A stretch of DNA of 64,000 nucleotides from Bdellovibrio sp. ZAP7 (GTDB lineage Bacteria; Bdellovibrionota; FAC87; UBA2466): NCBI GenBank assembly GCA_945878405.1, contig CAMCTJ010000006.1, forward strand, positions 1 through 64,000, written 5' to 3'. The translations under genes were made by a program, and so were the position numbers. The notes under the pieces are model-generated. The model was not told where the DNA came from and searched no databases. It was given only the letters and a program-made list of their open reading frames with translations. Positions 2,069 to 15,848 of this stretch are shown here, piece by piece; position 1 is the first letter of the stretch; every line of letters begins with the position of its first letter.

Positions 2069-3915
2069 CGACTTTTCCAAATTCGTCTTCCGCCCCAAAC
2101 AGTGCTTATCAACCAAAGCAAGAAAATACCAATGGTTGGAAATCCCGTTTCCGCGTTTCCCGGATTTACATTCGCGCACCCCTGAAACCCTACTTTCAGA
2201 ATCTTTTTATCTTCATCCTGAAAAGCCCCCGTCAGGCTACCTAAAAACTTTCTTTCATCAAAAAGCAGAGTTCGAATGGTCTTTTCATTTACTCCCCCGT
2301 TGAGACTTCTATCCGCTTGCACCAGGGCTTCCACAGAATCGATAAATCCCGGCGTGGTGGAAAGATAAAACAAGCTTTTCAAAGCGATGAGATCAACAGT
2401 TGTGGCTCCCAACGTATCTCGAAGCTCCCAAAGCGCGGAGGCCCATACCCATCCCGGAGTATGAGGATCGGAGTAAGCTGTGGAGTCACTAAACACTTTC
2501 TTCTCACTAAGGTTTCTCTGTGACGTTTGATAATCTCCTGAAAACGCATATTCCCCGACCGTGTGAGTATCTTGACCGCTGTTTTGGGAGGAATAACTTG
2601 CACCGAAGTAGTCTGAGTATCCTTCATGGATCACGTCACCTAGTCTGAGTTGATCAGCAGCTCCGAATTCAATCCCCGTGATCATGTCGGTAACATAATG
2701 CTGGTACTCATGCGCACTGATGAGAGCTTCACGAGCAAAAGAACCACCGGGATCGCCATTTAGGCTCGGACAAGCAGAAGTTTTTCCGTAACGTAAGAAG
2801 ACAAGGCATCTATCGATACTTCCACTGTTATCACAAGCCCCCGCAATGTATGCCGCGTTATTCAATTGGGTTGTTTTGGTAATTGATCCGTCACCATTTG
2901 GGCAAGTTTGGATTGCCTTAGCCATAAAATTTACAAAAACAGGAATGGGGTCGTAAGGAAAACTGAGTTCACTCCCAAAACTCGCCGCTTTGGCATCGAG
3001 CCAAGTTCTAAAGCTGGTGAGATGGTAATACACATTTCCCGAATCCACTTTTTGGTTCGGGCAGTTAGCGTCGCTGGCTGAACATTGATAGGAATAATTA
3101 GAGGCACTTGTTAAATCAATTAAATTGGTGGAACCAACATCCGAGTAGTTCTCCCCTGGTTCTCTGTCGTGCCTCACATACACATACCCATTTTTTAAAA
3201 TCCCGGTTTCCTCCGAGGGTACATTCTGAGGGATTCCTCCGCCCGAGGCTCCCGCTGGAAAAGGCTTGAATACGTTCAGATTAACCGTTGCTCTCTCACC
3301 CTCCGGCTCTCTCCAGTGCCGCATCACTTTCTTTTCTTCTAAAAGGCGAGAATTTTCCAAAGAAACAATTCCCCGCTTGAGCATTTCATCTCCTCGAGGA
3401 ACGGCTTCCACCTCAAAAGCCCATTCAGCGGTGTTTTGCTCTTCGTCTAACCAAATTCCCAGCCTTCCCTTTGAACTTCCCGTAAAGGATGCTCTTCCAA
3501 AAAGAATCGCAGCCGCTTCATTTTTTCTCTCTTCCCAGGAAGTTCTTAAAGGCATGACAGGGATTTCCACTGACTTTCTCAGGGTACTAGTTAGGTAATC
3601 TACATAGCCCGCTTTGTTGTAGTGAACCCTCAAGTGCTGGTAAAAAATCGGATAGTCTTGAAAAAAAAGATCGTAGGTTAAGTGGACATGGCTGGAGTCT
3701 TCTTGTCTTTTGGAAAGTTTCCATTCGATATTTTTAAGAATTCGAAACTCGTCTCTAATTGCTTTTTCAACGGCATCAAATTCTGAAAGGCGAACGCCAA
3801 ACGAATCAAACGAAACCGCTTTTGGAAACCCAGATTCAAATCGCAAATCAATAGAAAAACCTGTCAAGGAACAGAAAAACAGCACCACTAAAAATGTGCG
3901 GAGCGTAAAAATCAA
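2065..3915 (-). CDS. Secreted gluzincin metallopeptidase (M36/M4-like) with C-terminal TM/basic tail
   Basis: N-terminal signal (MIFTLRTFLVVLFFCSLTGFS), HEYQH zinc motif followed by HEGYSDYFG, and C-terminus FPTIGIFLLWLISTVWGGRRIWKSR. Confidence 0.75.
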   Translation of the reverse strand: MIFTLRTFLVVLFFCSLTGFSIDLRFESGFPKAVSFDSFGVRLSEFDAVEKAIRDEFRILKNIEWKLSKRQEDSSHVHLTYDLFFQDYPIFYQHLRVHYNKAGYVDYLTSTLRKSVEIPVMPLRTSWEERKNEAAAILFGRASFTGSSKGRLGIWLDEEQNTAEWAFEVEAVPRGDEMLKRGIVSLENSRLLEEKKVMRHWREPEGERATVNLNVFKPFPAGASGGGIPQNVPSEETGILKNGYVYVRHDREPGENYSDVGSTNLIDLTSASNYSYQCSASDANCPNQKVDSGNVYYHLTSFRTWLDAKAASFGSELSFPYDPIPVFVNFMAKAIQTCPNGDGSITKTTQLNNAAYIAGACDNSGSIDRCLVFLRYGKTSACPSLNGDPGGSFAREALISAHEYQHYVTDMITGIEFGAADQLRLGDVIHEGYSDYFGASYSSQNSGQDTHTVGEYAFSGDYQTSQRNLSEKKVFSDSTAYSDPHTPGWVWASALWELRDTLGATTVDLIALKSLFYLSTTPGFIDSVEALVQADRSLNGGVNEKTIRTLLFDERKFLGSLTGAFQDEDKKILKVGFQGCANVNPGNAETGFPTIGIFLLWLISTVWGGRRIWKSR

Positions 3916-9754: not shown

Positions 9755-9897
9755 AACAGCTCCTTGAAGTCACGCTTCTGCGACTTCGAATTCCAGGAGG
9801 CTATACAGCAAGGGGAATGCCATCAGAACTACTTCATTTCAAGCTTGTATTCGTAAAGTATACGCTGGACGTGGTCAGAAGTGCCCTATTTCGCATC

Positions 9898-12154: not shown

Positions 12155-12871
12155 ATGACTTCAGAGAACCGACATATTGTTGTTGTGGGGTGCGCTCGCC
12201 GCATTGGCCTCACACTTACTCAATGCTTTTTGGAATGCGGTTATCGCGTATCCGGACTCTACAAAACGGAGTCATCGGAACTGTCATTAATTCAGAAGCG
12301 ATTCGGAGATAGGTTTACAGCATTTCCATTTGATTTAAGAAAACCGGATCAGGCAGCTGAAATGGCCCAAAAAGCGGTGCGCCAAAACGGTTCCGTTTTT
12401 GCCCTTATTCCAGTGGCTAGCCAGTTTTATCGAACCCCACTAGGGCAAGTGACCGAAGCTTCTTGGGATGACTTATTCGATACAAATGTGAAGGGCCATT
12501 TCTTTTTAACTCAGGCTTTTCTTTCACATCTAGAGCGCCCCAGCCATATCATTAATCTCATCGATATTTTCTCATTCAAGCCGCTCCGAGGTTATATCGC
12601 TTACACTGCGGCGAAAGGGGCTTTGCTTTCATTAACCCGGAATTTGGCTAATGAACTAGCGCCACACACCCAAGTCAATGCCATTAGCCCCGGCCCCGTT
12701 CTTCTTCCCGAGAACTTTACCGAAGAAGAAAAATCCTTACATTGCTCTCGGACACTTTTAGGACGAACTGGAAGTCCCACAGACATCTGGAATGCAGTCC
12801 AGTTTCTTTTAGCGAGTCGCTATATTACTGGAATGAACCTGTGTGTGGACGGGGGCAGTTCCTTAATGTGA
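12155..12871 (+). CDS. SDR-family oxidoreductase (pteridine-reductase-like)
   Basis: 'VVVGCARRIGLTLTQCF', YxxxK motif 'YTAAKGALLSLTRNLANELAP', C-terminal 'YITGMNLCVDGGSSL'. Confidence 0.85.
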   Translation: MTSENRHIVVVGCARRIGLTLTQCFLECGYRVSGLYKTESSELSLIQKRFGDRFTAFPFDLRKPDQAAEMAQKAVRQNGSVFALIPVASQFYRTPLGQVTEASWDDLFDTNVKGHFFLTQAFLSHLERPSHIINLIDIFSFKPLRGYIAYTAAKGALLSLTRNLANELAPHTQVNAISPGPVLLPENFTEEEKSLHCSRTLLGRTGSPTDIWNAVQFLLASRYITGMNLCVDGGSSLM

Positions 12872-14404
12872 TGATTCGTTCTTTTTTATCCATCCATTAA
12901 GAGCTGGAACCTGAACGCTACTTAAAAATCTCCCTACCGCTAATGATTCGGCGAGCGCTGTCATTTGGCTTTGAAGAGAGGAGTCAACCATCAGCTTTTT
13001 GAGCGAGTTTTCTCGTCGTTTTAATTGAACCAAGAGGATCTTGGGAAATCGAGTCTCAATTTGCTCATCTTTCACAAACCCCTTTTCCCAGGCAAACTTG
13101 ATCCATTCCCTTTCAATGAATTCTGGATCTAATTCCAAGATTCCTTCCACTGTGGGTATGAAATATTTATCTTTTCGAGAATTGAAAAGACCGGGCGGAA
13201 GTTTCTGATCATGGAGATTGTCCCAAGCCTCATTCCACGCAGCTAAGAAAGACCGCTGCACGGCTACTGCTAGAAATCGATAGTTATTAGATGCCATCAA
13301 GAGTAATTGTTTCTCAGATTGATTGAGGTAGACCATGTCTCCCGTGAGAGACAAACCCAGGGCTACCGCTAGTGCGCTCTGATTCCGATTTACCGAAAGA
13401 ATTTGCAAACATTCTCTCCAGGCATCTCGAAGGGCAGTTTGAGTGAGTGTCTTATTCTTCAGTAGTACCTTGAAAGCTCGATTGTAATCGGAGGAAACTC
13501 CATCAAATTCTGGCTCAGCCAAGAAGTTTGGCTTTATTCGTTCAAAGAGCACTTTTAAGAGCGATTGCTTTTCTTGAGCAGATAGAAAAGTTTGTCCTTT
13601 TTCTAATCCGCGGCGTGTCCCTCCGACACTCAGCTCTAAGGTCGGAATGAGCTCCACTTCGGCTCGAGCCGCTTCTGCCAGAGCGCTCAGGACTTTCCCT
13701 AATGAATCTACTTGAGCAGAAAGAGCCATCTCTTCTGTTGCTTCTGAAATTTCAGCTGCTATGAGTGGACTGCTAGCTCCATAGGCTAAAATGGTTTTGG
13801 CTAAATCACTGGCTAGATTTCCTTTTTCCCGATTTGAGGTTTTCATCAATGAATCGCTTGAAACGAGCTCGGTTTGGATCATTTCAGCTAAAATTTTTCT
13901 TGCTGCGGGCTGAGATAACACAGCCACTTGCCCTAAAATAGGAAGGACCGCATTATTCGTGAGCGGGTGCTCTTTCAGAAGCATTGGGACTACTCTCACC
14001 AGAGTTTGATTGGTTTGCTCTACACTTTGTAATGAAGCTGGATCAAAATTTGAGGCCAGTTGTTTTAAACGAAAGGGGGCTTCATTGAATGAAATTCTTT
14101 GCGAAAGAGCATCTCTTACAATCTGAGGCTGTCTTTCCTGACAACTGCTGTCCGTCAAAAAAGAAACCATCCCCTCCATATTGTAGTCGTCTCCGTTAGC
14201 AAAGGCAGCTAGGCCACGCCCCCCCAGACAGGGATCTTCCCCCGGAGATTTCACTCCGATTTTTCTTGGTCCCTTTTTTAGAGGTTTCGTGACATCGTGG
14301 TCTGGGGTCCCAGCCTGAGCGCTTAATTGAACGAGAATCAAAAAAGCACAAACCCAACCGTTCAGAAATGCTTGCTGGCGAAATGAAGCAGGGATTCTAC
14401 TCAC
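12863..14404 (-). CDS. Hypothetical exported protein
   Basis: Long ORF with N-terminal signal (AFLNGWVCAFLILVQLSAQAG); no recognised domain; downstream of the FecR-like gene. Confidence 0.6.
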   Translation of the reverse strand: MSRIPASFRQQAFLNGWVCAFLILVQLSAQAGTPDHDVTKPLKKGPRKIGVKSPGEDPCLGGRGLAAFANGDDYNMEGMVSFLTDSSCQERQPQIVRDALSQRISFNEAPFRLKQLASNFDPASLQSVEQTNQTLVRVVPMLLKEHPLTNNAVLPILGQVAVLSQPAARKILAEMIQTELVSSDSLMKTSNREKGNLASDLAKTILAYGASSPLIAAEISEATEEMALSAQVDSLGKVLSALAEAARAEVELIPTLELSVGGTRRGLEKGQTFLSAQEKQSLLKVLFERIKPNFLAEPEFDGVSSDYNRAFKVLLKNKTLTQTALRDAWRECLQILSVNRNQSALAVALGLSLTGDMVYLNQSEKQLLLMASNNYRFLAVAVQRSFLAAWNEAWDNLHDQKLPPGLFNSRKDKYFIPTVEGILELDPEFIEREWIKFAWEKGFVKDEQIETRFPKILLVQLKRRENSLKKLMVDSSLQSQMTALAESLAVGRFLSSVQVPALNGWIKKNESSH

Positions 14405-14407
14405 TTC

Positions 14408-15388
14408 TTAATCTCCCTCTTTGCCGGTTATGCCCCTTTGCATTGGGGGCACTTTCAACGATTCGGATGAAGACTGATTTTTTTCATTTCTATTTTTAGC
14501 AACTACTCGCCAGTAATGATTGCCCTCTTCTAAAAATTGAATATCTAAAAAGGTTCGTTGGGTTTCATGTTTGATAGCAGGCGCGAAATCAGCATTCCGG
14601 GAAACTTCTATTTCATAAGTGGTCCCTTGCACCGGAAGGGCCGTCCAAGAAAGCCGATACCAAGGCCCATCGGGATCAGCAGGATTAGAAACTTTTGCAG
14701 GCAATAATCCCACTTTGTAATCCAGAAGGGAATTCAACTCAAACCGGGTCATTTTAACCTGGGCCTCAGGAAGAAGCTTTGCTGGTTTAGCTAGGCTGTA
14801 TACATTTTGAATCAAGTCTTTCTGATTAGTTTCCCATGATTTTGTATCTATAAAAAAGACGGGCAATTGAGGCTTTTGCACCTCGGGCATTCGCACTTCG
14901 ACGGCAGCCGCTTTAGGTAAGATGGCTGTCGCAGTCCCTTTATTGGAAATTAATTTGGCAGCTCCCTGAATCAAAACAATGTTAAATCGATCAGAGGAGA
15001 TCGAATCAAACTCAACCATTGAATCAGGCTCCAAAGTAAGCTTTTCATTTGAATTCAAAATGACTTCAGCTGAACTCTTAGGAGGGGTATAAATCATATC
15101 CTTTAAATAGAGATTGCTTTCTTTTTCGATTTTATTCCAAGAAAGAGCACGAGCATGCCGGCGGTTTACACCGGAAAATGTTTTGATCATACCAATCACA
15201 GGGCTGTTACCCAGAAACTCTGAATCGCGAGACTGCGTAAACAACAGAACTCCTGCTAAAAGCGACAAAATCAAACCAATCCCCAAAAGAAAGCGATCAA
15301 CTTTTGATTCAACTAATAATAGAATTCCAGTCGGCATAATGGTCTTCCTCATTTTGCTTATCGGTAATTCACGAACAAAACTGGGCAC
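14408..15388 (-). CDS. FecR-domain-like membrane-anchored protein
   Basis: N-terminal TM, then 'LYLKDMIYTPPKSSAEVILNSNEKLTLEPDSMVEFDSI' (FecR-like) and a fibronectin-like 'YRLSWTALPVQGTTYEIEVSRNADF...HYWRVVAKN'. Start could be 15352. Confidence 0.65.
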   Translation of the reverse strand: MPSFVRELPISKMRKTIMPTGILLLVESKVDRFLLGIGLILSLLAGVLLFTQSRDSEFLGNSPVIGMIKTFSGVNRRHARALSWNKIEKESNLYLKDMIYTPPKSSAEVILNSNEKLTLEPDSMVEFDSISSDRFNIVLIQGAAKLISNKGTATAILPKAAAVEVRMPEVQKPQLPVFFIDTKSWETNQKDLIQNVYSLAKPAKLLPEAQVKMTRFELNSLLDYKVGLLPAKVSNPADPDGPWYRLSWTALPVQGTTYEIEVSRNADFAPAIKHETQRTFLDIQFLEEGNHYWRVVAKNRNEKNQSSSESLKVPPMQRGITGKEGD

Positions 15389-15441
15389 CTTTTAAATTAG
15401 ATGAAGGCTCTTTTTGTCACCCAACCTCAGGTGAAGACTCC

Positions 15442-15501: not shown

Positions 15502-15517
15502 TGGCACGACGGTTGCT
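15502..15517 (+). promoter_or_regulatory. Sigma-54 (-24/-12) promoter
   Basis: TGGCACG-ACGG-TTGCT matches the RpoN consensus TGGCACG-N4-TTGCW in an intergenic region, oriented toward the ORF at 15600. Confidence 0.85.
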
Positions 15518-15599
15518 TTTTAACCTTCCCGTAGAGAGCACTGGAACGCTCTTTACGATAAACGAGTCAAAGAGTTGATGCGATTTAAGCGGAGGTAGT

Positions 15600-15848
15600 A
15601 TGGCTCACCGAGACAGAAGCACAGGACACGCGTTCATGTATGTTGATATTAAAGAATTGTTACAACAAACTGCAACTATCAAGAAGGCGGCTGAGAATCA
15701 GGAACCAGTAGCAGCACCTTCTCATTCTTCTCATCGATTTGGGACGACTGCAGAACAAGTTCAAGGAAATTTAGAGCGACTTCAATCTCTGCACCACAAG
15801 CTTCATGCAATGCTAGAAGAATTGAATAAAATCACCGGAAAAAAATAG
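15600..15848 (+). CDS. Small 82-aa orphan protein (helical/coiled-coil-like C-terminus)
   Basis: Good RBS (GGAGGTAGTATG), sigma-54 promoter upstream, heptad-like C-terminus 'VQGNLERLQSLHHKLHAMLEELNKI'. Confidence 0.75.
   Translation: MAHRDRSTGHAFMYVDIKELLQQTATIKKAAENQEPVAAPSHSSHRFGTTAEQVQGNLERLQSLHHKLHAMLEELNKITGKK

Follow-up and report, generated by a model that had tools for sequence, protein, structure and literature searches.

Promoters of sigma-54/NtrC-family systems carry a GG and a GC at -24/-12 and are activated from an upstream palindromic enhancer, some 70-135 bp away and in helical phase with the promoter, in genomes that encode both RpoN and activators. In a general view, sigma-54 controls the bacterial exterior (PMC3162934). 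Among the activators described, PilR (of PilS-PilR) has sites in Pseudomonas that are NifA-like, reading TGT-N11-AGA with nearby GTCT elements (PMC6058289). For the phylum of predatory and related bacteria to which the present locus belongs, sigma-54 control seems to have received little study; Bdellovibrio goes unmentioned in a cross-phylum paper on sigma-54 regulons (PMC12316311), and the regulon described below is not treated in the literature that we searched on sigma-54 and Bdellovibrio. The locus and its relatives share the properties of sigma-54/NtrC-family systems listed above. They differ in that neither the palindrome nor the target family was found described in the literature searched, and the composition of the regulon is a prediction.

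The locus was analyzed within a 64-kb stretch of DNA, referred to as the window, together with relatives from the same order and from distant clades. As a whole, the observations are best explained by a sigma-54-dependent, enhancer-activated gene of an undescribed single-copy family whose product would be small and cytoplasmic; we assign this reading, which is based on sequence comparison, a probability of roughly 0.8.

An exact -24/-12 element precedes a small gene

The element TGGCACGACGGTTGCT at positions 15502-15517 of the + strand matches the sigma-54 consensus TGGCACGN4TTGCW with zero mismatches; it conforms to TGGCAC-N5-TTGC with GG and GC at -24/-12 and, as TGGCACG-ACGG-TTGCT, is the sole exact match within the window. 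It is intergenic, between a divergent minus-strand gene and a plus-strand small ORF, and lies 98 nt 5' of the ATG. The small gene (15600-15848, + strand, stop codon included) starts with this ATG at 15600, has 82 codons and is preceded by GGAGG at 15591-15595. The first-pass annotation had proposed an RpoN promoter of correct -24/-12 spacing, located between genes and pointing at a small ORF with a GGAGG ribosome-binding site, and the sequence bears this out. From the positions of GG (-25/-24) and GC (-13/-12), the transcription start site of the small gene is predicted at about 15528. RpoN is encoded in the same genome (C5:75301-75777), as it is in the other 19 genomes of the same search, and about 11 AAA+ sigma-54 activators were recognized there by strong PF00158 matches.

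With two mismatches allowed, the consensus occurs 6 times in the window compared to 6.7 expected by chance, so it is the exactness and the conservation of the 15502-15517 site that carry weight. In the whole 2.24-Mb genome, the pattern TGGCA-N6-TTGC was found at 36 sites, versus 11 for the reversed control pattern.

The promoter is conserved across clades

A sigma-54 promoter precedes the orthologs in 12/12 genomes of the window's order (one with a single change in the -12 box) and the distant homologs first examined in 18/18 cases. In a first set of motif-bearing loci that included further families, it was present at 44 of 45, a count in which the fixed bases are partly due to construction as sites were picked with the promoter pattern. 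For this reason, 28 further members were scored against the consensus as a held-out set. An 11/11 site was found at 27 of these 28 loci: 25 were perfect on initial scoring, and of the other three, two carried a perfect site just outside the scanned stretch. Among random windows of equal size, by comparison, a score of 10/11 is reached by about 2%. The promoter is nearly invariant in the clades that retain the N-terminal motif of the small protein (see below). Promoter conservation in relatives, a check proposed in the first-pass annotation, was thus found in the order, in the first set and in the held-out set alike; together with the phased upstream enhancer site, it backs the sigma-54 reading. 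We consider sigma-54 control of the conserved small protein to be well supported by these comparisons.

The match might instead have arisen by chance, with the small gene being transcribed from an ordinary sigma-70 promoter, and a TATAAT hexamer does occur at about 15475 on the + strand. In relatives the hexamer is not preserved, in contrast to the sigma-54 site, which recurs at more than 70 loci, and neither a sigma-70-like promoter pair nor a terminator was found in the stretch around the small gene. On conservation and background rates, a chance sigma-54 match was rejected, and transcription from a sigma-70 promoter in its place is most improbable.

Upstream elements lie at constrained distances from the promoter

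The regions 5' of the promoters were searched for spaced pairs, which yielded TGTC-N9-GACA; this was refined to the palindrome CTGTCYAA-N3-TTRGACAG. With at least 7 of the 8 core positions matched, this palindrome is present at 17 of 32 loci outside the window's order, compared to 1.4 expected. At the small-protein loci its distances to the promoter cluster near 81, 91, 102, 112 and 123 bp, and the period that fits them best is 10.8 bp (R 0.63); 0 of 500 random sets were as periodic, a figure that overstates independence because the loci are related by descent. An activator site at a phased distance is therefore predicted in the distant clades, and in the window itself what is found is a conserved TGTCAC at a fixed spacing.

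The distant-clade palindrome was not found upstream of the small gene of the window. The candidate enhancer there (15415-15434, + strand) carries the TGTCAC half site at 15415-15420, inside TCACC-N8-GGTGA, and because TGTCAC stands in place of the palindrome, the activator may differ as well. The same replacement is seen in 11 of the 12 genomes of the order. TGTCAC is 86-88 bp 5' of the promoter in 10 of the 12, and in G014 it is at -76, one helical turn less. Read on the other strand, the element is GTGACA, a 5/6 match to TTGACA, and it could thus be the -35 box of the divergent FecR-like gene rather than an enhancer of the small gene. Its distance to the FecR-like start nevertheless varies from about 82 to 153 nt among the order-level relatives, with no conserved -10, in contrast to the fixed spacing relative to the sigma-54 promoter. 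The spacing disfavours the -35 assignment, which we regard as unlikely, and TGTCAC is probably the enhancer of the small gene, perhaps one serving a diverged activator.

Comparative evidence of this kind establishes the promoter, the enhancer, the gene and the family as sequence features, and from it we infer binding of an activator and dependence on sigma-54.

The palindrome points to a wider regulon

The strict palindrome occurs at 42 sites in 13 genomes, compared to 2 for a control pattern. For 36 of these palindromes that are not at a small-gene locus, the sequence 30-180 bp away was scored for sigma-54 sites, and one of at least 9/11 was found in 36 of 72 strand-windows against a background of about 5%. 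Spacing periodicity is weak at these other sites, a fraction of 0.4 of random sets being as strong. The linked targets, in distant families (L178-L213), are mostly signal-peptide proteins or lipoproteins as judged by eye. A CarD-like regulator is also among them, as is a lytic transglycosylase; in the window's genome, the homolog of this transglycosylase likewise has a sigma-54 site. The programme served by the small gene looks, from these predicted targets, like an envelope or export programme. The surface, motility or stress programme suggested at first pass fits the enhancer regulon, with its exported proteins and lipoproteins; the small protein itself may serve such a programme. A guess about a single promoter becomes in this way a defined, testable regulon that unites a single enhancer motif and a single sigma factor with a target that is near-universal.

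The small protein belongs to a phylum-wide family

Most of the substitutions that separate relatives affect third codon positions (for instance 27/11/54 by codon position relative to G001) and, judged by the ORF, this bias and the homologs, the 82-aa ORF is a real coding gene. Homologs are present in 12 genomes of the window's order, its own counted. When more distant members were included in a profile search, 145 of 369 phylum genomes were matched, almost all of them once, although some weak matches, for example in family f9, may be false members. The small protein has no Pfam family match, its NCBIfam matches are weak and scattered with none above the curated cut-off, and no credible PDB relative was found. 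On this evidence the family is a single-copy, phylum-wide and undescribed family of small proteins. The first-pass statement that the protein matches no family consequently stands for Pfam and NCBIfam, whereas its description as an orphan does not, given the 145 genomes and a conserved local neighbourhood. A phage or mobile origin of the gene was also considered and rejected, as no relative was present in viral contigs.

Three parts make up the members of the family: the motif RDxSQGxxFVY at the N terminus, a variable linker and, at the C terminus, an amphipathic helix. In the window, the motif corresponds to residues 3-14 (HRDRSTGHAFMY; 15606-15641, + strand) in alignments, and the helix (family LKxNLxxLxxLHxRLxxMLxELExL) to residues 51-80 (15750-15839, + strand), over most of which the AlphaFold2 pLDDT is about 85-94. 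N57, L61 and L68 are invariant. AlphaFold2 predicts a weaker helix at residues 17-32 and disorder in the rest of the protein. The family is uncharacterised and has clear conserved residues.

The 5' leader (15528-15599, + strand) comprises a start-proximal hairpin and the GGAGG ribosome-binding site. The hairpin, at 15530-15557 near the predicted 5' end of the mRNA, has a folding energy of -15.3 kcal/mol and a z of -3.8 (first 48 nt), and leaders of relatives show a mild hairpin tendency (mean z -1.0) with unrelated sequences. Such folds would be expected if the RNA of the leader, or a small RNA, were the functional product and the ORF were of secondary importance. The ORF is, however, under clear protein-level selection and its product is conserved across families, whereas the leaders differ strongly in length and sequence among relatives, show no convincing enrichment of a conserved element beyond the ribosome-binding site and, for the window, give no Rfam match. 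An RNA product is very unlikely, and we retain the small protein as the functional product.

Neighbours change while the small protein is constant

The divergent gene (14408-15388, - strand, start codon uncertain) encodes a FecR-like membrane protein, with a weak FecR match that is below the cut-off. It adjoins a gene (12863-14404, - strand) whose 513-aa product has no Pfam family and, as judged by eye, probably carries a signal peptide. Both are beside the small gene in 12/12 order-level genomes; synteny, another of the checks proposed at first pass, is thereby conserved. Loci of other clades have an HD-domain protein, an Hsp20-like coiled-coil protein and a conserved small protein of some 100 aa beside the small gene. 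Since the small protein is constant while its neighbours change, a function linked to any single neighbour is less likely than one as an adaptor or regulator.

Two of these neighbours form a conserved pair beside the small gene: the coiled-coil protein, whose C-terminal part gives a weak Hsp20-like match, and the ~100-aa protein (QVEYLIxQSxxGxHxLFD). The pair was seen at loci L102, L104-L107, L109, L112, L117 and L118, the ~100-aa member in most of them, and the coiled-coil member is also present at the HD100-like locus L121 (~2610-3894).

Shorter orthologs are found in Bdellovibrio-type genomes (about 76 aa in the HD100-like G184). They resemble the window protein in their C-terminal helix and share a neighbourhood, in which the Hsp20-like coiled-coil protein and an exported protein of 115 aa lie downstream in convergent orientation; these shared neighbours support the HD100-like ortholog. 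They differ in that neither the N-terminal RDxSQG motif nor a sigma-54 promoter was found in the shorter orthologs of Bdellovibrio and related families. Sigma-54 control would therefore not be essential to the basic role of the protein, and these orthologs provide a natural contrast without such control.

A model for regulation and function

Combined in one scheme, an NtrC-family activator would bind the upstream enhancer, TGTCAC at -87 here and the palindrome in distant clades. The intervening DNA would loop, with helical phasing between enhancer and promoter, and the activator would open the RNA polymerase-sigma-54 complex at 15502-15517, so that the small protein would be made only when the activator is on. 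The predicted product is small, cytoplasmic and mostly disordered, with two conserved contact modules, the N-terminal linear motif and the C-terminal amphipathic helix. It may dock on a partner, with envelope and exported proteins being supplied by the same regulon. For the identity of the activator and the molecular role of the small protein, what we infer is as follows. That the protein is an adaptor or a regulator docking on a partner is the leading hypothesis for its role, although one of low probability. Only tentatively, we propose that an undescribed sigma-54 programme exists at the level of the phylum Bdellovibrionota, with CTGTCYAA-N3-TTRGACAG as its defining enhancer, many exported and envelope proteins under its control and the small protein as a core regulatory adaptor. 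If this is true, gain or loss of the N-terminal motif would mark whether the protein is wired into the programme.

PilR as a candidate activator

A PilR-like NtrC-family activator is encoded about 4 kb from a pilin gene in the window's genome, and 112 nt 5' of the ATG of this pilin gene the palindrome is matched at 13/14 positions (L214, ~1914-1933, G000:C1). The palindrome reads TGT-N11-ACA with GTCT and so resembles the Pseudomonas PilR sites, by motif alone. In contrast to what PilR control would suggest, the pilin genes of most relatives are without the palindrome: among those tested, 13/14 matches precede the pilin gene of the window's genome and one pilin gene of G006, and weak 11/14 matches were seen in G001 and G041. 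In the complete HD100-like genome G184, a pilin gene is at 1.22 Mb. No clear sigma-54 site was found between the palindrome match and the pilin gene of the window's own genome. PilR as the activator is thus partly supported through pilin genes, the pilin-enhancer link not being general among relatives, and a PilR-type protein can be named as a candidate activator for the palindrome.

The proximity of this activator to a pilin gene with a palindrome match, a sigma-54 promoter that also precedes fliL in the window's genome, and weak matches of the small protein to FspA would be consistent with a small protein that serves type IV pili or flagella, as a component or a chaperone, and is not a general adaptor. 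The small protein has no significant family match, the orthologous loci contain no pilus or flagellar genes and, as stated, the link to pilin is not general; such a role is unlikely.

An NtrC link to the neighbouring glutamine synthetase III was rejected, as no sigma-54 site precedes the glutamine synthetase III gene. The promoter of fliL in the window's genome (L047, G000:C7:52154) reads TGGCACCTCCTTTGCA. A second conserved sigma-54 promoter, TGGCATTCCCCTTGCT, is present in the window at 9807-9822 on the - strand and precedes a gene for a 601-aa membrane TPR protein; homologs of this protein have a sigma-54 site of at least 10/11 near the gene start in 6/6 relatives checked.
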